From Leucosporidium creatinivorum (taxonomy: Eukaryota; Basidiomycota; Microbotryomycetes; Leucosporidiales; Leucosporidiaceae), in assembly GCA_001600635.1 (NCBI GenBank), contig BCKL01000004.1, forward strand, positions 476,044-540,043: 64,000 bases of DNA, given 5' to 3'. A program made the translations under genes and the position numbers. Positions 478 through 52,859 of this stretch are shown piece by piece. The notes beneath the pieces were generated by a model. That model made no database searches. It saw only the letters and a program-made list of their open reading frames with translations, and was not told the DNA's origin. Every line of letters starts with the position of its first letter. Within the stretch, counting starts at the first letter, position 1.

Positions 478-3239
478 ATGAACCACGACCAGCTCGACCA
501 AGCAGCAGCAGAATGGCTCATGTTAGAGTGAGTAGCTGCTATAGAGATACAAATGCCCCAGCTGACTCCCCTACAGCCAGGTAAGCTCCCGGCCCCACCA
601 CGCGCTTGCTCGACGAGCGAGAGCATCCTCCCCGTCCCAGAGCGCACCCAACAGCTCACTCGCACCCTATTAGAACCCGACTACACGAGCTGAGATTGAA
701 GCACTGGTCTCCAGCAAGGACTACAAGGAGCTCGCCGTGCGCTTCTCGACTCGGATCGCCTTTGGCACGGCGGGACTGAGGGCCAAGGTGCAGTAGCTTC
801 TCCAATCACTCGAGTAACACTACCGACGCCACACCTCTATAGATGGCCGCTGGAACTGCCTACATGAACGACCTGGTCGTTATTCAGGCGACGCAAGGGC
901 TTGTTCGATATGCTGCCGACCACGTCGAGGGCGCCAAGGAGCGAGGCATTGTCATCGGATACGACCACCGAGCTGTGGAAGGTATGTGCAGCAAGCGATT
1001 CGCAGAGCTAGCGGGGAGCGTAGCGAGGCGGGAGGGATGGAAGGTGTTTGCTTTCGAAGGGCTCGTACACACGCCGATGGTGGTGAGTAGAGATCTACTT
1101 GACAGCAAGAGCTCCCCGCTGAGCTGCAGAGCTGACCTCTACCGCCCCTCGCAGCCCTTCGCTACGACCAAGCTCAATGCCGCGCTCGGCCTAATGATCA
1201 CCGCTTCGCACAATCCTGCCGCCGACAATGGCTACAAGGTGAGCCAACTTCGCCCTCCTGCTCTACTCCCAGGCTCACCCCTCGCACCTTACAGGTCTAC
1301 TGGTCCAACTCGGTCCAGATCATCCCTCCTCACGACGACGGAATCGCAGCTCGCATCGACCAGTCCCTCGACGTCGCTCCCGAGGTCTGGGATCTCTCAT
1401 CCACTGCACCCGCATGGGATGGTACCGAGGACATGAAGCGCCAATACCTCGAGATGGCCGCCTCGCTCTCAACTCGGCGACAGGACAACGCCGCCTCGGA
1501 CCTCGTCTTCACCTACACCGCGATGCATGGTGTAGGCTTGCCGTTTGCGAGCGCTGCTTTCGAATCGTTCGGCTTCGGGAAGGATAGCTTCAGCGTGGTG
1601 GAGGAGCAGGCTCAGCCAGATCCTCGCTTCCCGACGGTTCGCTTTCCCAATCCTGAAGAGAAGGGTGAGCTTCCCGCTTGGAGCCGATGCGTGAGAGCGA
1701 TTCCCTGACGTGCTACCTCGCCCACAGGAGCTTTGGTTTGTCTGCTACTTCGTCGACCTGCACGAGAACCCTCGCTGATCCCTCGCCTTGCCATAGGATC
1801 TCGCCATTGCTCACGCCGACCATGCCGGCTCCACCATCGTCCTTGCCAACGATCCTGATGCCGGTATGTTTAATTCTCTTCGCCCTGCGCGCCCCAGAAG
1901 CTCACCTCTGCCATTCCACAGACCGCTTCTGCGCCGCCGAGAAGGTCGAGGGCGCATGGAAGGTCTTTACAGGTGACCAGCTCGGCACTTTGCTCGGAGC
2001 CTGGGTCCTCGCCAAGTACAAGGAGTCAGGAGCGCCGACCGGTGAGCTCTGCAGCTCTAGCTGCCAATGTCGGATCGCTGAGGTCGCGCCGACTCGCAGA
2101 GAAGCTCGCCATGTGCGCCTCGACGGTCTCGTCAAAGATGCTGCGCGCCATGGCCAAGAAGGAGGGGTTCGTATTCCGTGACACTTTGACCGGCTTCAAG
2201 TAGGTGCATCCGTCCCTTCGAGGCGCGGATCATCGCTGACCCTCATCCGCTCACCAGATACCTCGGCAACGAAGTCCTCAAGCTTGCCGAAGAGGGCTAT
2301 GCGCCGCTGTTTGCGTACGAGGAAGCTATCGGCTATCTTCACGGCGAGGTCGTGCGGGACAAGGATGGAGTGAGTCCGACGCCGCCTCGGCCGAAGTTGC
2401 TGAAGCTGACCATCCGTCTCTTCTCACAGGTCACCGCCCTCGTGAGCTTCTGCGAGATGGCAGTGGCGCTTAAGAAGGAAGGGAAGACCATCTCGGCGCA
2501 CTTGAATTCGCTCTACGATCGGTAAGTCTCTCGCTCGGACAGCGAGGCAGCTGCTGACCCTCCGTCCGCTCAGATATGGCTTCTTCACCACTTCCAACTC
2601 CTACTTCATCTGTCACGATCCTGCCAAGACTGACAAGATCTTCACCATCCTCCGCTTCGGCGTTCGTCGAGTCACGCCGCTCTCGGGTTCCAAACTGACC
2701 TTCTCGCGCTCGCAGGATGCCCCCTCATCCGCCCACTCTCAGGACTCCCTCAAGCTACCGACCACACTCGGTGGCTATCCTATCATCTACATCCGCGACC
2801 TCACTATAGGCTACGACTCATCCAACCCTCCTTCCTTCACCCCAAACCTACCCATCGACCCCAAGACTCACATGATTTCGTTCGCTGTGGGCAGCACGGA
2901 GCATGGCGATCGAGTCGAAGTGACAGGGACTGTACGCACGAGCGGTACCGAGCCCAAGGTGAGTCCTGTGTGAGCAAGCAGGCGGCTGGAGTCCGGCCAT
3001 GCTGCTCGGCGGAGCTCTTTGTTGGCTCTCAGCGGTCCTTCGCGCCTGACGAGCGGGTCTGCACCCAGTATCAGTCGCTGACTATCATCTTGCTCCCTCT
3101 CCTCCCCTCGTAGATCAAGTTCTACCTCGAAGGAAGCGGATCCGATCGCAAGCTGGTGGAGAGCAAGCTCGCCGAGGTTCGCGAGGCGTTGGGCACCGAG
3201 TGGTTGCGGTGGGAAGAATTTGGGTTGGAGCGAGCGTAG
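478..3239 (+). CDS. PGM3: Phosphoglucomutase/phosphopentomutase (PGM2/PGM3 type), multi-exon
   Basis: An alpha-D-phosphohexomutase that moves phosphate between C1 and C6 (or C5) of glucose- or pentose-phosphates in the cytosol. All four family signatures are readable across exons: the catalytic serine loop GLMITASHNP (near 1188-1218), the metal-binding loop NDPDADR (split by an intron near 1865), the sugar-specificity loop YEEAIGY (near 2318) and the phosphate-binding C-terminus TSGTEPKIKFY (2940-3125). The N-terminus FGTAGLRAKM and MNDLVVIQATQG matches the PGM2/PGM3 branch rather than classical PGM1. The first coding exon (478-527) joins a 4-nt micro-exon (577-580) and then 674 onward to read LDQNPTTRAEIEAL. 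A second micro-exon of 8 nt lies at 1728-1735. The start is chosen because it gives the family's usual short N-terminus. It converges on the RasGEF gene. Pentose versus glucose preference cannot be read from the sequence. Confidence 0.93.
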
Positions 3240-3486
3240 TTGATGGATAGAGATAGAACTGCAGCAATAGACAATCGATCATCGCACCTCTGCCTCAGCT
3301 CGGCGCTCGGGGCGCCCATCGCCCGAGTCCCTTCTCCCTCGTTCGCAACTCTCAAGCTGTCGCTGAGGACGAGACGCGAGCAATATGTAATAACTGAGGA
3401 AGTTGCGAGTAGGTAGCCCGCCCTAAATACGGTCACCGACGACTAAAAACGACTATGCACTGCTAATCAACTCGCCATAGGACCGC

Positions 3487-6400
3487 CTACAAGAACCCGC
3501 TCTCCGATAGTAGCCTTGCAATCTTTTCCTGTGGTGGTGAAGAAGTTCAGCGCGATACGACGACACACGAGAGCGTCCTAAACTCACATCATCCCGCTCC
3601 CTCGGCTCCCGCATCAGCGACATGTCGTAGAGGCGCTGATCATCCGTCGCCGGGTTGCTGTTGGGCGGGAAGAGCGACTCGTCGATGAATTTGGCCAGGA
3701 CGGGAACGGCGGCGAGGTTGTAGGTCGTCGCTTGGTGCAACTTGATCATGAGAATGAGCTCGGAAGCCTTTTGCCGCTTATTGAAGTTGATCTGATGCGG
3801 CTTCTCGCGGAGCATGTCGGGATTGCCGTCGCCGATGAAGGTCCAGTCGGTGAGGTAGACGCCTGCAGAGGTGCGAGGAAGGGGAGGTCAGCGAGAGGAA
3901 TGAGGAGCGACCGAGCTGAGCACTCACCGAGGAAGGGAACGCAAGGAGGGGCGACCTTGCGAAGCTGGTCGCGATACTCTTTGTAGTTCTTGTCGGGCCG
4001 CATGATGTTGTTGAGCATGCCGAGCGAGATCATCGACTTTTGGCTGACCGTCTCCCACGTCCGTCGAAGTCGGTGAATGGGCGTCGAGTTGAGACCAGCG
4101 ATGATGTGGATCAACGTCGAGTAGTTGTTGAGGGCGAGGCAGCGCTGTGCGAATGTAGGCAGAGAGATCAGCGAAGGCTTCGAAACAGCGAGCGGGCGAG
4201 GAGCGCACCTCGGCGACCAGAATGAACTGCTTGACAATGTTGGCGCGCTTCTTGAGGTCGTCTTGCTGCAAGATCGTCTCAGTGACCCATCGAGTGACCT
4301 GTGGATGGCGAGGGTGGAAGAGGGAGGTCAGCATAGGGCGGGCAAGCCGAGGAGCTCGAGGAGCTGGACGTACAGCGTTCGACATATCGATCATTGCACT
4401 GATGTTGGGCGCCTCCGAGCCATACTGCTTCGGCCAAGCCTTCCCGAGACACTCTTGCGGCGTGATCCTGGCGAAGAGGCGGCCATCCATGATGGTGAGC
4501 TGGCGGGCGAGCTCGAGAGGGTCGATGTCCATGAACTTGAGCTTGCGGAAGTTACGGGGGACGATGGAGGGCGGAAGAGGGCCTGGGGCGAGGTTGCCGA
4601 CTTGCCGAGGAGCGACACCAGAGAGCTGTCGAGTTGCAGGAGTGAGCGAGCTGGTTCACCGAGCGCGATGAGAGTGGACGTACGCGCTCCTCGACGACCT
4701 TGATGATCTGCGGCGACTGCACAGGATCGCGCATCGTGTTGGAAGCAAAGTCTGCTATCCGATGCAGAAGCTCCGGGTCGAGCTGATCGTGATCCATGAA
4801 CTCGCGAACCCACGACTTGAGAACGTTGGCGACGCTGGTGAACCCAAGGGTCAGCGTACGCAAGGGCGCTCACAGAAGCTGAGACACTAACCGAGCTCGA
4901 ATGGGCCGAAGCTTGCGAGTCTCCCACTCCTTCATCTCCTCCACCGTCAGACCTTGAGGCGCCTCGATCAGATATCGCTCGATGAGGAAGTCGAGGAGGT
5001 CATGCGAGGTGCAGAACGTGCGGTAGGTCATGAGGAAAGCTGAGAGGTAGTTGCTGTCGACTGTGAGTGCGGGAGAGAAACGTCAGCGAGCTTCGATGTT
5101 GCAGACGAGGCGGCGACGAACCTCGACCTTCGTGACTCGCAGCGGCGACTACCAGCGCACGAAGCGTTCCACCCTTGACCTGACCCTCCATGTTGAACGA
5201 GACCTCGTCAGTGCCGTAGTCGGGTCCCAGCCATGATGGTGTAGGTTCCGAGTGAGTGCTCCTGCGAGAAGGCGAAGGCGAGGTGTCGTGAGGGTCGGTG
5301 CCGAGGAGCTTGGCGAGCTTCGTATTCGACATGGACTTGGACGGTGACACTGTGGACCAGTTGAGGTCAGCGGGGGAGTAATTAAAAAGGCGAGGGCGCA
5401 GAGGCTTACTACGATTCGTCGAAGTCGTCGACTGAACGTCGACCTGGCTCGAGACCGAGGTGTTGTTGGTAGCGACTGAGCCTCTCCGCTTCTCCCATCC
5501 GGGTGTCGTAGGCGAGAAGAGCTGCTTGGACGACGTCTTGGTCCGAACCGACGGTATCGTCGAGCCCGAGAAGAAGAAGTCGCTGTCGACGCTCTCGCGC
5601 GAGTGACTGCTCATCTCGGCTGGGTCGTCCTCCCGACTGAGCGAGACGCGAGAGGACGCATAGCTGTGAGCTGAAGCGCCCATGGTATCTTGGACGAGGG
5701 AGCTGCGAGTCGAGGCGGTTCGGGTGTCGAAGAGTGAGGTGCGGAAGGCAAGATTGGGGCGACGGAGATTGGATGGTGCGGATGCCTGGACCTCAGCGAT
5801 AGATCCAAGCGAGGTGATAGTTGTGCAGAGGGTGGTGACGCCGGTGTCGAGGTCGGCGAGGATCTCGAGCACGGTATCGGGGCCGGCTTGGGAGCGCGAG
5901 GGGGTGGAGAAGAAGGCGAGAGGCGAGGTAGCGAGGGGCTGAGCTCCGCCGATGGGAGATGTCGAGACCTCTGAGGAAGCCATGTAGAGCTCTTGCAGAG
6001 CGGCGAGAAGGCGAGGAGCGGCGTCGTAGAGGGCCTGCTTGCGCACCTCGAGCTCGGCGAGTAGCGGTCGAGCCTCCTGCACGCTAGCTCGGTACTCGGA
6101 GGCGGCAGTAGGGTCGACGACCGATTCCTGATCACTGCTCTTGGTGATGGACGAGATCGAGCCCGAAGTCGAGACGACGTCCCTCCTCGAGCTCGGCCGC
6201 GATTGCGACTCGGTGGAAAGCTCAAAGTCGACTCCCGAGGCGACGTCGATGTCCTCGACCTTGTTGAGAAAGGTGGCAAGTTGACGTTGGAGCTGAGCTG
6301 CCTGGTCGAGGAGCTGCGTTGACGAGAGGCTAGAATGGTCGAGCCGAATGACCTTCTGGGCGGGAGTTGCGGCGTCGTCGCCGTTGCTGGATGCCGCAGT

Positions 6401-10047: not shown

Positions 10048-10294
10048 ACTCACATGTCAAACTCGATAGCGACAGCGTTGCCGACTCCACGAGGGAAAGG
10101 GCCTTGGAGAGGCGGCCTGATGACTCCCGTCGGCACCAGCGACCAGAGCGAGTTGGAGCGGTTGATATTGAGGATAACCCTAATATAATCTATCCCGCCG
10201 TTAACGAGGTGGTCAGCTTCAGGGTCNAGAAAGCGAGCAAAGAGCGACGACCGAAAAACGAGGCTCGGCGATGGCTCTCAGCTCGGCTCGCGAC
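10048..10294 (-). pseudogene. Loose fragment of the Ppo-like oxygenase gene (exon plus intron)
   Basis: This 247-bp stretch matches 14124-14370 inside the downstream oxygenase gene with only about three clear differences and one ambiguous base (10227). On the minus strand it holds the exon that reads IRVILNINRSNSLWSLVPTG and onward to AIEFN, plus the adjoining intron with its branch site. It lies outside and beyond the 3' end of the intact gene (stop at 10665), in the same orientation. It has no start, no further exons and no promoter, so it cannot make the enzyme. The near identity suggests a recent partial duplication, or an assembly trace of a second gene copy. Confidence 0.85.
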
Positions 10295-10664
10295 GACCTC
10301 GTCTGCCAGATCGAGCAGGAGGGCGCGTGAAGCAAGCGTTCACGATCAGATCTGCGCAACCCCCGTAAGTCACGCGACCACCAACGCCTCGCTTCTGGGA
10401 CGCTCTAAAATCTCGAGCCGGCCTCGGCGCTCCCGCTTGATCTCCGGCTTGGCCAGCGGCTAAGGAGCGGCTAGGAGGTGAGCACCCCGATACGCGGGAG
10501 CTAATGCTGTTGCCTCCTCCCTTGCTCTCTTCCGATGTCCGCTCTGGCCTCGCTGAGCTCTCGCTGCCCAAGAGGAGAGAGCAGAAGCGAGCCGAGTTTC
10601 AAGCTATCAGACTATCAGACTATCGGCGGGCAAGCACGTATCTGCAAGCTAGTAGAAACCGCCC
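10295..10664. other. Intergenic stretch between the oxygenase fragment and the oxygenase stop
   Basis: No coding exon or RNA is supported. It contains a short direct repeat of CTATCAGA near 10604-10622. The part near 10600-10664 is the likely 3' UTR of the oxygenase gene. Confidence 0.35.
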
Positions 10665-13600
10665 TCAGACCGAGTAGACGACGGTGAGACCCTGAGGGAA
10701 GTAGGAGAGGGTACCTGCGAGTCGAGGAAAGCGACCGGTCAGCTTGCTGTCGACGCCGAGAAGTCAGCTCGAGCAGACTCACCCTGCGCCATCATGTACT
10801 GCGAGCCGTAGGGAGGCTTGTTGTTGGAAATCCTACCGAGCTGACCGGGAGCACCAGCATCGCGGCGGAGGTCGCGCAACTTGAAGGTCTGCGAGCAACG
10901 GGAGCCGAGGAGAGTCAGCCTCCGAGTCGTTCGCGAAGGCCTCGAATAGACGGGTCTTGACTCACCTCCTTGACGAGCTCAACAGCAGCAAAGACGATGT
11001 AGGACTCGTGAGGGATGTCTGCGAGGTCAGGAGACAAGGATCAGCGCTGGAGTCGTCCTCGCCGAGCAGCGACGTCGACGAAAGGCTGAGAAGAGACTCA
11101 CTGGACTTCTTGAAGTAGCCGCCGAGGATGGGCTTGTAGCCGGCGATGTTGCGGGTAGGATCCACGGTGTCGGGCTTGGGAAAGGTGCCGGCGTCGCGCA
11201 TCGCCGAGGTCAAGTTGGCGTAGACGAGATCGTCCTTGTCGATCTGCACCGTCTGCCCTCCATCGGCGAGACGAGTCGCCTGCTGAGCCTTGCGCAGGAC
11301 ACCAGGGACGATCGGCGAGAGACGAAGCGCCTCCATGATGTAGGCCTGCGAGCGAGGAGGCCAGACGTCAGCGCTGCTCTCACCGGCGTTCGGGGACAGA
11401 ACACTCACAGCGATCCTCTGGTCGGAGGTGGGGTCGTTGAGGTTGGCCAAGCGGACCAAATCCCTGTACACGACTTCGTTATCGAGGTAGAAGTCGGTGA
11501 CGTTNGCAGCGACTGCGAGAGGTGAGGAAGTCGAGNCAGTCGTCGAGGCTCGGCGAAGCGCTAGCAGATGCACTGACCGTGAGCGATGTTGACCGAGGTG
11601 ATCAGAGCCGAGATGAGGAGGNTGGAGACGTCTTCGTGCTCGAGATTGCCCTTGTTGGCGTTGACCGTCGCGTAGAAGGCGCGAGCGAAGCCTGAGAGCG
11701 ACGAGTGCATGACGCCGACGCCCTTGACGAAGGCCTTGGCGTGCTCGGTGATGTGNTGAAGCGCCTCCTAGAGTGGTGGGTGGNCNTCAGCGCTGCTCTC
11801 AGCNGCANAGGCAGCNNANTCGAACTCACAGTGACCTGGCCGATGCCTGCGAGGCGCAACGAGACGATGTGGCCGAGNATGTGCGAGTACTCGGTGACGT
11901 TCTGGGGGAGANGANGTAGTGAGATNATAGTCGAGTCGTTATCATCGCTAAGAGCTCACCTNGCGAAGAGCGAAGCCATCCTTGGGCTCGAAGCTGCTCG
12001 GCGAAGGCGAAGGAGCAGGGAGGTCAGCACGGTTGAGGGCAAGAAGGGAGCGAATCATGACTCACTTNAGGTAGACGTAGGTGTAGCACTCGGAGAGCAT
12101 GCGGTAGAGGTCNTGCGCCGTGAAGAAGCCCTTCTTGGTCTCGGTCTTGAGAGGGATGCCGAACTGCTCGGCGACGAGGGTCATCGACGNGGGCTGCGNA
12201 GGCGAGGAAGGAGGAAGTCAGCATTGCCGCGCATGAAACAAGACGCTCCACTCACCACGTAGACGTCGCGAAGGATGTTGAGGTGCTTCGAGCCCGTCTC
12301 GTAGCCCCACGACTGAGCCTCGATCCTCCTCCTCGCATCGACGGTGAGCCACTGAGAGACCTGACCCTGCCAGGCGTCGGGGAAGAGGCCGAGGTTGAGA
12401 GCGTCGGTTCCCGTGCGGTGAACATCGGGACTCTTCTCGGCCTTGACGTGCCACTTGTCGAAGAGGGGAATCTCGGTGCTCGGCGCGGCGATCACCTCCT
12501 GCTCGTTCTGGCAGCCGTAGACGCCATGGTAGGTACTCCTGTCTCCGAGCACGGCCTTGCACGCGTCGAAGGTGTGCACGGGCTTGATCGTCTGGCGGCG
12601 AGGAGCGTTGACGCCGAGAGGGCAGGCGAGATCGTACTGGCGCTTGATGCCGAGCTTGCCGAGGATGTCGTCGGTCGTCGAAGGGATCGAGAAGGGGAAG
12701 AGGGCGTACGCCGAGTTGAAGGTGTAGCACTCGGGGAAGACGCGCATGAGGAGCTGTGTCGAGGTGGAGGCAGAGGTAAGCCTTCGCTCGACCGAGTCGC
12801 GCGCTCTCTCGAGTCCTAGCTCACCTTGCCCATCACTCCACCGAAGCTGCCGCCCTCGAGGTCGGGGGTGAGCTCCTCAAACTGGTAGACGGTGAAGTTG
12901 TTGGCGTTCATGCTGTTGGTGGAGCGAAGCGAGTCAGCGCCGAGTCGGCGGGGGAGCGCCGAACGCCGAGCTCACTCCTGGCAGAACTGTGTAGTGAGAT
13001 GCTCGGTCAGCGCTCTGTAGGCGATCACAGCGCATGACGAGTAGCTCACGTAGCGGTCTCCGCGAACGAGAGCCGCAGCGTCGCTCAAGATGGCACCTGC
13101 GAGGGGGCGAGGAGTCGGTCAGCCTCAGCCTCTCGGCTCGGTCGACAAGGAGAGCTCACGTGAGACGGTGTAGCCAGGTCCGAGGCCACTTCCGGGCATG
13201 CTAGGCTTGGCCTCTTCAGCGAGCAGGCCGGGGAAGACTGAGTTGCGGAGGAGGGAGGTCAGCTAGCGCCCACGCCGAGTATCGAATGCGACTCACGCTC
13301 CATGTTGTCGACGTGGGTGTAGAGCCTGCTGGCGATCTTGACGATCTCGGGATCCGAGTTCCACTCTGAGTGAGTTGAGGGTAGGTGAGAAGAGCAGGGG
13401 TCGACGCCGAGAGGGGGGAAAGAGAGGAAGGCGAGTCAGCGAGAGCTACGCACACGACCACACTCTGATACCGACACTCACGCTTGAACTCGGTGAACTG
13501 CTCGAGGCCGAGGAACTTGCGGAACTCGTTGAGGGAGCAGGTGCCCCAGGTCGAGCGAGCAGCGATGATTCCCATCATGTCGATGATGCGCATGGCCGAG

Positions 13601-16169
13601 GGAGAGCCTGTAGCGTAGGTGTGGGGTCAGCTCGCGAGCCATGTCGCTCTCCAAGACGATGAACAACTCACCACGAGCCTTGAAGGCGCCAGCGACGTGC
13701 TTGGTCGCGTCCGAGAGGATGTTGACCAAGTCCTTGTCGTCAAAGTAGCCGTCACTCTTGCGCTTGANGCCGGGGATGTTCCACTGTTCGTCGNGAGAGG
13801 GTGTCAGCTCGCTTCGGAGTGGAAAGACTCATCACAGCTCACCTTCTTGACGTCGTTGCCTGCGCCGAGGAGGGAGAGGTCAGCCTCGGCGATCGCAAAG
13901 AGGCGCAGAGAAGGACTCGGAGCTCACCCATCGCCTTGGTCATGTTGTTGTAGACGACGAAGAAGTCGGCCTCGGTGTAGTCGACGGGAGCCTTGCCCCT
14001 AGGACCCCACTTCTTCATCTCGGCCTCGATCCACTGCTCGTCTTGCTTCGAGACGGCGGCGTGCCAGCGGTAGAGGCTGTAGGTGAAGTGTCAGCGAGGT
14101 GTGTAGCTCAATAGAGCAGCTAGACTCACATGTTGAACTCGATAGCGACGGCGTTGCCGACTCCACGAGGGAAAGGGCCTTGGAGAGGCGGCCTGATGAC
14201 TCCCGTCGGCACCAGCGACCAGAGCGAGTTGGAGCGGTTGATATTGAGGATAACCCTAATATAATCTATCCCGCCGTTAACGAGGTGGTCAGCTTCAGGG
14301 TCCAGAAAGCGAGCAAAGAGCGACGACCGAAAAACGAGGCTCGGCGATGGCTCTCAGCTCGGCTCGCGACTACTTCGCTAGGCTGCTTAGGCAAGGAGAC
14401 GAAAGGAAAGCTAGATAGGACCCTTACCTTGGAAGATAACATTCCTGTAGGTGAGTATGAGAGGAGCAGAGCAGCGAGGCGAGACAGCAAGCGAGTCGAG
14501 AGAGCAAGTCGGGGAAGAACGAAGCGACAGGGAAGGGAGGAAGGAAGTAGATGCACCAGTTCAGCTCACGATCTCCTCTTCACTGAGAGTAAAAGTCAAC
14601 CGAACTCACAAGAACCAACCACAGTTGACGAGCCTCGCCGTCTGGAAGAGATCCTCATCCTGCTGCACGAGGCCCTTGGGATCCTTCTCGAACGCCTGCT
14701 TGTAGGCGACGACGTCGGGGTGGTCCTGAGAGTAGTTGGCCTCGTACATAACTTGAGGCTTGCGAGGAGGCTTGGCGGTGAAGCGGTCGCCTTCGTTGAT
14801 CGCCAAGAGCTTCTCGGCGATGAGGTTGTGGTTGCCTGCGGGCGTGGGAGAGGCGCGCGGCGAGCTCAGCGAGGTGTATAGAGGTAGGTAGATAGTAGCT
14901 GGCTCTACTCACGAGTGAAGACGACGGCCAAGGTGGTGACGGCGGCGGGCATGAGGAAGAGACGGTTCGCCGAGACGACGTCGGGGTACATCAAGCCGGC
15001 CTTGCCCGTGCGAACCTCGTTCTGCTCGGCTTGGTTGTTGCCCTGTAGTAAAGGGAGGTGTTAGAGCACTCCTCTGCAGCGGAACGGTTGAGCAGACTCA
15101 CGTAGATGATGCTCAAGTCGAGGTAAGAGGAAGCCTCGTTGATGTTAGGGTCGACCATCGACGTCTGGAAGCACGAGTGGCTGTATGGGAGTTCGTGAGA
15201 AGGTCAGCGCGGACTCTACCTCGCACTCAAGACTATCTACCTACATGATGGTCGTCGCAAAGTTGAAGAGCAACGACGAGATGCCGCTCGGGTGGGGGGC
15301 AAACTCATCCCTCTTGAGCAATGCGTCAAAGAGGGTTCCAGGGTCGGGAAGGTCAGGAGGAAGAGGGTGCATGGGAGGGACCGAGCGAGCGTAGGCCGTG
15401 TTGGCGGCGCCGAGCAGCTCATCCCAGGGACTGTTGCCCGAGCCGTCGGCCTTGCGGTAGCGGTTGGAGCCGACGTAGGCGACGGGAGGGTGACTCAAGT
15501 CCGCCCAGAGGAAGCGGATGAGAGTGTTTGTAAGCGAGTTGCCGATGACCGAGTTCTGTAGGTGAGAAGCGCGGCGAGAGTCAGTCGGTGCGAGCGAGCG
15601 AGGGAGTCGAGCTCGGCGATGAGGCTACTCACAGGCGGCAAGGTGCTGAGCATGACGACGACCTCCTCGAGAAGCAGCTTCCTATCATCCAAGCCACCCT
15701 CCCTGGCAGACTCGAGTCCTTGGATGGCGCCCGAGAGCATGACGAGAGCATCTTTGCCGAGAGACGAAGGTCAGCTCGGTCGAAGCTGTAGGCGATTCAC
15801 ACTCACCCTGAACAAGCGTTCCCTGACTCATCTGAGTCATGACCGTCTTGAAGAGGTCCATCTGAGGCTCGGGGTCGCTAGGAGCCTGCACAAACTGCTG
15901 CGAGAGGCGGTCGGGCGCCGAAGGGGTCTTGCGAATCCAGCTCTCGGCGTAGCTGATGACCTGCAGCAGAGAGTCAGCTCTATGCTCCTCGACTCCTGTA
16001 CAGTTATATGAGCACTCACATTGCCCGCGATGGCGAGAGGGACCTTCGTCACCCTCTCGACCGCCCACTGCGAGGTGAGGAAGAACTCCTTGGGCGCGGG
16101 AGGGTACCTGTAGTGCTCGGTGTGAGGGGTGGGGCCAGGGGGAGCGTAGACGACGCGTGCAGAGGCCAT
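10665..16169 (-). CDS. Psi-factor-producing oxygenase / linoleate diol synthase-like heme peroxidase fused to P450-like domain
   Basis: Fungal fatty-acid dioxygenase (Ppo/LDS family) that makes hydroperoxy- and dihydroxy-oleic or linoleic acids used as developmental signals. It is built from about twenty small exons. The N-terminus (MASARVVYAPPG, 16169) leads into a cyclooxygenase-like peroxidase domain: HSCFQTS with the probable distal histidine, NEASSYLDLSIIYGNNQAEQ, then RNHNLIAEKL. The catalytic tyrosine and proximal histidine sit in YRWHA (14061-14072 on the reverse strand). A 17-nt micro-exon (14428-14444) restores NVIFQDYIRVILNINR. The C-terminal half is P450-like with the K-helix ExxR as EALR (11322-11333), then RNIAGYKPILGGYFKKS and VELVKETFKLRDLRR. 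The cysteine expected at the heme loop is absent, as in PpoC-type enzymes, so the second reaction (hydroperoxide isomerisation) is probably lost. Nearly all ambiguous bases of the window lie here. Start and stop are clear; internal exon edges near the Ns are approximate. Confidence 0.85.
14124..14370 (-). repeat. Parental copy of the duplicated oxygenase exon/intron segment
   Basis: This segment of the oxygenase gene (one exon and most of the preceding intron) is repeated almost exactly at 10048-10294. The match ends abruptly inside the intron at GGCTCGCGAC. Here it is joined to the upstream micro-exon and the rest of the gene, so it is the functional copy. Confidence 0.85.
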
Positions 16170-50536: not shown

Positions 50537-52859
50537 CTACTCTTGGGGCTCCTCGGCGTACTGCTCCTCGGCAGCGTACTCCTCGGCATACTCCGCTTCG
50601 CCCTCGAACACCTCGTCCTCCTCGAAGCCGGCTTCTTGGTCTGCAAGTTGAGCGATGGTGTCAGCGAGGAGTAGAGATGCGACGGAGAGAACAGAAACGT
50701 ACACTGCTGGTACTCGGCGACCAGGTCGAGCATGTTGGACTCGGCCTCGGTGAACTCCATCTCGTCCATGCCCTCGCCCGTGTAGGGGTGCAGGAAGGCG
50801 CGCCTGCGGTAGAAGAGCGAGTCAGCAGAAGTACGACCCCGGCAGTTGCTCGAAACGTACCTCCTGAACATCTGTAGAAGGCGCAAGGTTAGCTCGATCT
50901 CGGAAGAAGCGCCGAGAGCCAGACGTACCGCCGAGAACTGCCCATGAGTCCGCTTGAAGAGCTCTTGCACCGATGTACTGTTGCCGATGAAGGTAGCAGA
51001 AACGGGCGCCGCAGCGGTGGGGACGGAGCAGAGAGCCGTAGCGATGGCGTTCGGAATCCACTCTGAAGGTCGGGCGGGACCAAGTCAGCCGAGAGCTACC
51101 AGGAAGAGCGATTCAACGAGAGCAGCTCACCGACGAAGAAGCTGCTGTTCTTAGCCTGCACAGCCGCCATCGCATCCTCGACATCTCTCGAGGAGACGTT
51201 ACGGCCTCGGAAGTAAGCCGAGACGGTGAGATACTTGCCATCTCTAGGATCCGTAGCAGCCATCATTGAGGTTGGGTCGAAGACTTGGCTTATGATGTCT
51301 GAGACCGAGTGTCGCTGGAAGGAGGAGGCGGCGCCGGGGGCGGTGAGGGGAGCGAACCCAACGGTGAGGAAGTGCAGACGAGGGAAGGGCACCATGTTGG
51401 TCGCGAGCTTGCGGAGGTCGGAGTTGAGCTGTCCGGGGAAGCGGAGAGGAGTGGTGATACCGCTCATGACGTTGGCGATGAGGGCGTTGAGGTCGGTGTA
51501 GGTGGGGTCCTTCTTGCGGAGGGTCTGGCAGGAGCGGAGGGTCAGCGAGGGTCGACGAGAGAGGCGAGGTTACGACTGACCTTCTGCATGATCTCGTACA
51601 GAGCTTCGTTGTCCAAGCAAAAAGAGAGGTCGACCGTCTCGATGAGCTGTGGACGAGAGGAAAGTCAGCCGGAGATGGGCCGAGAGCGAGAAAGCCGAGA
51701 CTCGCCTGGTGGAAGGAGAGGACAGCGTTGTAGGGCTCGACGACCGTCTCGGAGACCTTCGGCGACGGGAGAACCGAGTACGAAGCGAGGATGCGGTCGG
51801 GGTACTGGTGGGCAGCGCGAGATGAGCGTCAGTCGAAGCTCGGACGGCTGCTCGGCGCAAGCCACTCCAACTCACCTCCTCGCGCAGCTTGCTCAGCAAG
51901 AGGCATCCGAGTCCAGATCCACTTCCCCCCCCGAGCGAGTGCGTGAGTTGGAACTAGTTGAGTGAGGGTCAGCTTTGAACAAGGCGGCAGGGGCGGCTCC
52001 GGAGCAGCGTAGACTTACACCCTGCAAAAGATCGCAGTTCTCGGCCTCCTGTCGTAGGCTATCCATGACCGACTCGACGAGCTCAGCTCCTTCGGTGTAG
52101 TACCCCTTGGCGAAGTTGTTGCCGGCCTTACGATCCGGAGGACGAGGTGGTCAGCGCCGAGATCAGCTTTCTAAGGGTGTCCACTCACTCCAGACTGGCC
52201 AAAGACGAAGTTGTTGCTGTGGTAAACCGCTCGATAAATCAGCTGGGGTGCCCCTGGTGATCATCAGCAGGACTCACGGGCGGAAGAGGTGGCCGAGCTG
52301 CACGAACGAGACGCGAAGTCAGCTCGGTTTCACTTGCAGCTCACTAAAGCGAGACCCCCCACCTTGGATCCCCTGATAGCCTCCGAAGTACTCGGCTCGA
52401 GGTCCACCATCAACGAGCGCGGGACATACTTGCCAGCAGCTGCTCAGGCGAACGTCAGTACCCCGTTTCCGACGGCGCTTTCTCTCGCAATGAGCAGAAC
52501 GTACATCCTTCTGAGAAGAAAACGTTGAGCCTATCAGTCTGCTCCGCGATGGCGCTGTCGAGCAGGTTCTGTTCGAGAACAAGGGAAGCGAGGGGTAAGC
52601 TGACGAGAGGGACGCGCTGAGCCGAGCTACTGGAGGTGCTCACGCCGTTGGAATCGAGAGCATGTTCGGTGAGGACCTTCTCCCAGAAACTGGCGCTGAT
52701 CGAATTCCCAGCCTGGCCTTAAGAGCGTGTAGTAGAGCAGAGAAGCGGCAGACAAGAAATGCGTTAGCTCTCGGTCCTCGCGTCGAAAGAGAGCGGGGGA
52801 CAGTGGGGGGGGAAAGGCGAGGTGTACTCACCTACAGCGAGGGTAATGAGCTCTCTCAT
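50537..52859 (-). CDS. Divergent beta-tubulin
   Basis: GTP-binding microtubule subunit. Exon 1 encodes MRELITLAV (52859); the next gives [20 protein letters not shown]. Further exons give [45 protein letters not shown], then [13 protein letters not shown] (reverse strand about 51904-51945), the GTP-binding glycine loop, and [21 protein letters not shown]-terminal exons give [37 protein letters not shown], an 11-nt micro-exon (50861-50871) for MFRR, and [20 protein letters not shown]. The acidic tail ends [18 protein letters not shown]. The loop is GGGSGSGLG instead of the usual GGGTGSGMG. The N-terminus is MREL, not [17 protein letters not shown] replaces GQCGNQIGAKFWE. It therefore looks like a diverged paralogue rather than the main beta-tubulin. 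All essential parts are present and no break is seen. Confidence 0.92.

Follow-up and report, generated by a model that had tools for sequence, protein, structure and literature searches.

Four nucleotides, CCAG, at positions 577-580 of the Leucosporidium creatinivorum DNA analysed here (a stretch of 64 kb, termed the window) very probably form a real coding exon in the main mRNA of a phosphomutase gene, and the exon is most likely constitutive. Splice-site strength, reading frame and N-terminal homology to 80 bacterial proteins all point to this as the best reading of the genomic sequence. An initial annotation had proposed a 4 nt micro-exon here. The exon boundaries it gave, and its two flanking GT-AG introns of 49 and 93 nts, are exact, and the proposal draws support from the sites, the frame and the 80 homologues.

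The phosphomutase gene and the frame at its 5′ end

The 13 introns of the gene, all GT-AG, were set by protein continuity, and the spliced product is a single open protein of 623 amino acids. The four Pfam domains PGM_PMM I to IV are present in order, each above its cut-off (residues 46-187, 214-319, 330-455 and 562-596), and the 80 bacterial relatives align to most of the protein's length. By these sequence matches its membership of the phosphohexomutase family is confirmed. That much of the initial assignment to PGM2-type enzymes stands; the narrower label (yeast PGM3-like, as distinct from PGM1, GlmM and PMM) comes from N-terminal motifs, and we take it as an assumption. The six NCBIfam equivalogs listed for the protein are all far below cut-off. 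It contains TASHNP, presumably the active-site phosphoserine loop. The Pfam and NCBIfam matches start downstream of the micro-exon junction, and a PDB search gave 29 sequences whose best stretches start at residue 42 at the earliest, also beyond the junction. Among the best candidates scored in the organism's own genome (an assembly of 27.7 Mb in 63 contigs; the G+C content of the window is 60%) no second copy of the gene was found, with all 11 protein-search matches falling at the locus itself. Segment 478-800 as a DNA query, likewise for the best candidates scored, returned only itself. Further phosphomutase-domain stretches are present on contigs C9 and C11 of the assembly.

Two peculiarities elsewhere in the gene were seen in passing. 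Its intron at 788-842 (+ strand) has a poor donor, GTGCAG, and no match to NCTNAY, the branch-point-like form that was scanned for. At about 958-1005 (+ strand) the residues DHRAVEGMCSKRFAEL, with GTATGTGCAG, look like a small exonic insertion; the motif adjoining it is presumably conserved.

The frame speaks for the 4 nts. In the conserved frame (ORF 674-796) a TAG is directly 5′ of the AAC at 674, which places the start of the conserved exon at 674 or later, and exon 1 read in the frame of ATG 478 needs one extra base, modulo three, to join it. Exon 1 ends with ...ATGTTAGA in phase 2 (..TTA GA). The codon for D17 is then split, with GA from exon 1 and C from the micro-exon, and exon 1, CCAG and exon 3 joined read MNHDQLDQAAAEWLMLDQNPTTRAEIEALV, the peptide across the junction being EWLMLDQNPTTR. 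Frame and conserved protein both need these 4 nts, which have a recognisable acceptor (576) on one side and a recognisable donor (581) on the other. The last three of them, CAG, also form the exonic part of the donor that follows (CAG/GTAAGC).

Table 1. Positions of the exons, introns and signals discussed, numbered from the first letter of the window
Feature	Position	Strand	Details
Phosphoglucomutase/phosphomannomutase gene	478..3239	+	14 exons, 13 introns; stop codon included
Exon 1	478..527	+	50 nt; encodes MNHDQLDQAAAEWLML, then GA of the split D17 codon; WL..D motif spaced as in bacterial homologues
Out-of-frame ATG in exon 1	513..515	+	gives MAHVR-NPTTRAEI... if micro-exon skipped
Intron 1	528..576	+	49 nt, GTGAGT...CTACAG; donor 9.87 bits, acceptor 8.34 bits
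Branch-point-like GCTGAC, intron 1	561..566	+	A at 565; no AG between A and acceptor AG
Putative micro-exon CCAG	577..580	+	4 nt; C completes GAC (D17), CAG = Q18
Intron 2	581..673	+	93 nt, GTAAGC...TATTAG; donor 9.35 bits, acceptor 5.37 bits
Branch-point-like GCTCAC, intron 2	654..659	+	A at 658; no intervening AG
Exon 3	674..787	+	starts AACCCG...; codes NPTTRAEIEALV...FGTAGLRAK
Second phosphomutase micro-exon	1728..1735	+	8 nt, GAGCTTTG; middle of NPEEKGALDLA; weak downstream donor GTTTGT
11-nt exon, peroxidase-like gene	12976-12986	-	within RYFCQDMNANNF, a stretch matching An_peroxidase; from protein continuity, compared with exon included only
Beta-tubulin gene	50537-52859	-	15 exons; 11-nt exon 50861-50871, 20-nt exon 52278-52297

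The comparison at the junction comes from the bacterial relatives, which are read without introns. Six peptide patterns, none of which includes the junction residues (one of them is residues 1-8), were scanned against bacterial and archaeal genomes and gave 295 relatives; the best 80, all bacterial by their titles, were kept and used. Their ORFs were picked with a query from which residues 1-45 had been removed, to keep the N-terminus from steering the choice. A Trp at the distance of W13 from FGT is present in 63 of the 80, an Asp aligned with D17 in 63 and both in 62; many of these bacteria are related actinobacteria, and the counts are not 80 independent observations. The spacing of the micro-exon reading, 4 residues from W to D and 9 from W to Thr/Ser, is found in 70 of the 80; 4 are without the Trp and 6 differ. 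One homologue, L066, has EWLAQDPDPETRAELRAILDGGDDAALADRFGARLEFGTAGLRGE where the micro-exon reading has EWLMLDQNPTTRAEIEALVSSKDYKELAVRFSTRIAFGTAGLRAK. At the position of Q18 the homologues have Pro (63/80) far more often than Gln (6/80), and by this alignment the residue itself is not conserved. This atypical Q18 is one of the points that weigh on the micro-exon reading.

Splice signals, chance and competing readings

Splice sites were scored with matrices from 30 other introns (11 in the phosphomutase gene, 14 in beta-tubulin and 5 in a peroxidase-like gene), placed by hand from the continuity of the protein in genomic sequence. The donors at 528 and 581 fall within the reference range of 2.5-12.8 bits and are the sole GTs above 0 in 478-720. 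Acceptors 576 and 673 are within the reference range of 1.1-11.0 bits. Acceptor 673, the weaker of the two, is a further point against the preferred reading: the AGs at 654 (8.61 bits) and 640 (7.25 bits) outscore it, and with an 11-intron matrix it has 6.80 bits versus 7.72 for 654 and 8.25 for 640. Both of these AGs are upstream of the branch-point-like A at 658, and joining at AG 654 leads to a stop whether or not the micro-exon is included. The motif NCTNAY is present in 27 of the 30 reference introns, 19 of them having GCTGAC or GCTCAC itself. Intron 1 is shorter than all 30 (52-155 nts), and its branch-point-like motif is 12 nts from the exon, where in most reference introns the distance is 16-25 nts. 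The short length and the close motif may weaken intron 1.

How many other ways there are to reach the conserved frame was addressed by enumeration. Starts at any of the five ATGs in 1-673 were combined with donors GT or GC and acceptors at every AG, for zero, one or two introns of 40-400 nts each. Among the resulting 1,066,872 chains, 3,943 stay open as far as FGTAGLR; they give 3,825 distinct proteins. The micro-exon protein is first of the 3,825, with 103.4 bits against a profile from bacterial N-termini only. The second-best open protein has 99.4 bits and depends on a donor of −12 bits. Sites that all reach at least 2 bits are found in just three of the 3,943 chains. Two of these include the micro-exon, one starting at ATG 478 and the other at ATG 520; the third starts at ATG 513 and removes a single intron, 528-673. 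This last is also the only one of 66 open one-intron chains whose sites all reach 2 bits, and the other single-intron alternatives were rejected. When the exon-1 peptide was replaced by random peptides none of 2,000 reached the real score (best 98.6), and when it was shuffled 2 of 2,000 were at or above it (best 103.6). Though the two shuffles count against the micro-exon reading, by these figures exon 1 in the 478 frame has homology of its own, real if modest.

The motif alone is no evidence. Composites of an acceptor, a gap of 0-15 nts and a donor were counted on both strands of the window and in 50 dinucleotide shuffles, and they are not enriched there: 3 on the + strand and 6 on the − strand, versus a shuffle mean of 4.64 per strand (range 1-10). 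Since the count is about that of the shuffles, support has to come from frame and homology. By protein continuity three of the nine composites are exons, 577-580, 50861-50871 and 12976-12986. Those at 2430-2441 and 52430-52439 are false, with the reading running through them inside an exon of the phosphomutase gene and a beta-tubulin exon, respectively. [The scan misses the 8 nt exon at 1728-1735, whose donor is GTTTGT.] The addition of frame makes a large difference. With donor 528 and acceptor 673 fixed, and frame-restoring exons of 1, 4, 7, 10 and 13 nts counted, none of 20,000 shuffled interiors had such an exon with sites as strong as those observed, and 49 had one with laxer sites. When stretches of the window served as the interior the result was 0 of 30,250 on each strand, with 64 and 66 for laxer sites, the stretches being overlapping and not independent.

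The micro-exon could be real and yet optional, a variant of the preferred explanation whose odds overlap with it, and splicing would then tune the amount of the enzyme or its N-terminus. Inclusion would give the full N-terminus, and skipping would end translation early (from ATG 478) or give a form starting MAHVR (from ATG 513). We consider this unlikely. An exon length indivisible by three, an ATG able to rescue the frame and the further AG at 580 would all suit such an arrangement, but the sites flanking the micro-exon are strong and there is no obvious reason for such a switch in a metabolic enzyme. There is fungal precedent for a regulated micro-exon in Xlr2 of Trichoderma virens, going by an excerpt of PMC11121469.

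That CCAG is mere intron, within a single intron 528-673 and with translation from ATG 513 giving MAHVRNPTTRAEIEALV..., is very unlikely. Both sites are good, the protein is open, it is among the three chains with all sites at 2 bits or more, and ATG 513 is preceded by A at −3 and followed by G at +4; the existence of a rival with such good sites has to be weighed against the micro-exon. However, ribosomes would have to bypass ATG 478, which too has A at −3. The junction would read MAHVRNPTTR, and the W and D that match homologues at the exact spacing (62/80) would be lost. The score is 90.4 versus 103.4 bits, 13 lower, and the presence of the strong donor at 581 beside a good acceptor would be left unexplained. 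The initial claim that skipping the 4 nts shifts the frame is correct from ATG 478, but the enzyme would not be strictly abolished, as ATG 513 could rescue the frame.

A combination of the two possibilities has a slim chance of being right. Here CCAG would be a two-way switch of the N-terminus: with AG 576 it would be a 4 nt exon and the full N-terminus would be made from ATG 478, and with AG 580, or skipping, it would be a recursive step and a shorter enzyme would be made from the overlapping ATG 513. The second AG (CCAG/GTAAGC) has 4.96 bits with the 30-intron matrix and 0.26 bits with the 11-intron matrix, and its use leads to the skipped product. If true, one tiny exon would select reading frame and start codon together.

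An assembly error, with a base missing near the junction so that an ordinary single intron seems frame-shifted, is scarcely credible: nothing direct favours it beyond scattered single Ns elsewhere in the window (10.2-13.8 kb), a one-base change would leave W to T one residue too short, compared with the (4, 9) spacing that the micro-exon shares with 70/80, and the sites around CCAG would become an unexplained coincidence (0/20,000).

Proposed splicing route and other very short exons in the window

If the 4 nts are indeed an exon, as preferred here, its neighbouring sites would have to be used in turn. Frame, sites and homology can be read off directly; the presence of the exon in mRNA and the following route are deduced from them. 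A donor, a branch-point-like motif and an acceptor are present in each of the short flanking introns, and recognition would be by pairing across the intron. Acceptor 576 and donor 581 are 4 nts apart, and CAG is shared with the exon side that pairs with U1. Simultaneous occupancy would be hardly possible. With the two sites too close to be bound together, the introns would be removed sequentially. Either order would work, as the first removal leaves the other site an ordinary one beside a long exon. What the protein would need from CCAG is mainly the C, for the conserved Asp codon, and the length of 4 nts that restores the frame. Splicing, more than the amino acid, is probably what preserves the CAG codon.

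Very short exons are not confined to the phosphomutase gene within the window, exons of 4, 8, 11 and 11 nts being present, and this suggests that the genome handles such exons. The 8 nt exon, absent from the initial annotation of the micro-exon, is within a motif, NPEExGA[ML][DE], that is gap-free in 71 of the 80 bacterial homologues. The spliced beta-tubulin, in a PDB search with a threshold of 1e-160, aligns gap-free across QFSAMFRRRAFLH to the beta-tubulin chain of PDB 5w3j, which we take to be from yeast. Its gene also has a GC-AG intron at 51647-51705 (− strand; GCGAGT...CCACAG). The peroxidase-like gene perhaps encodes, on our assumption, a fungal fatty-acid dioxygenase. The region 10227-13794 has 23 N bases in 22 places, mostly single and most of them at 11.5-12.2 kb, as if from ambiguous base calls. 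Pieces of ORF at about 3450-4700 (− strand) look to us like a RasGEF (CDC25-type) gene.

Relation to known exons of this size

Recursive splicing has in common with the arrangement at 577-580 a juxtaposed acceptor and donor and stepwise removal. Its ratchet points leave no exon sequence, whereas 577-580 would retain 4 nts needed in the mRNA; with zero exon sequence retained the conserved frame and spacing would be lacking these 4 nts, and the site does not qualify as a recursive splice site.

The nearest fungal counterpart is the 1 nt exon of Fusarium CYP621A, which, according to the part of PMC12940212 drawn on here, has sequence-read support in two species and is in all 24 genes studied. Like the 577-580 exon it was inferred from frame and an intronless homologue and is within a conserved motif; it is 1 nt and read-supported in those two species, whereas the exon here is 4 nts and read from genome sequence. 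The same excerpt states that exons of 2-5 bp are present in Arabidopsis, Drosophila and human. In mammalian MPC1 there is a constitutively included exon of 4 bp (PMC9929638, in part), which is the same size as CCAG and likewise not a multiple of three. Long introns flank it, and its definition depends on 67 bp on the upstream side and 6 bp on the downstream side, in contrast to the 49 and 93 nt introns here. Plant micro-exons, including the 1 nt exons of APC11 and VPS55, are described in the relevant passages of PMC8831610 as RNA-validated and conserved across species, in which they differ from an exon read from DNA. They share with it tiny size, restoration of frame, being missed by annotation and, on loss, an altered N-terminus. 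A similar point on competition between the introns flanking micro-exons is made in those passages. The P450 genes of Phanerochaete chrysosporium, also fungal and with frequent small introns, have exons down to 6 bp (PMC1184071, from an extract), though these are of another gene family and larger; PMC12940212 also brings up an 8 nt case. The suggestion that 4 nts is near the smallest possible exon fails against this record of 1 nt exons with transcript support in plants and Fusarium and of the constitutive 4 bp MPC1 exon (PMC8831610, PMC12940212 and PMC9929638, each as excerpted).

Three other papers were set aside as precedents: in the excerpt of PMC4624585 the "6-nt exon 2 sequence" belongs to a promoter construct, and in those of PMC3990503 and PMC8022950 the sole mention of a micro-exon is a mapping option. 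Among the papers listed in a literature search that had most subscription journals outside its scope, none dealt with a micro-exon of a fungal phosphomutase; the one paper listed for phosphoglucomutase and micro-exons together is on alternative splicing and antigenic variability in endo-parasites.

The 577-580 exon is very probably a new instance of a known oddity, exons this small and smaller being documented, and involves no new mechanism; the known limit of exon size is not extended by it. Its practical consequence is that automatic annotation would be liable to truncate or frame-shift this metabolic enzyme. Where RNA data are lacking, homology to intronless bacterial relatives can bring such an exon to light. 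With exons of 4, 8 and twice 11 nts in a window of 64 kb, this intron-rich genome looks useful for asking how intron definition copes with sites that are 4 nts apart.
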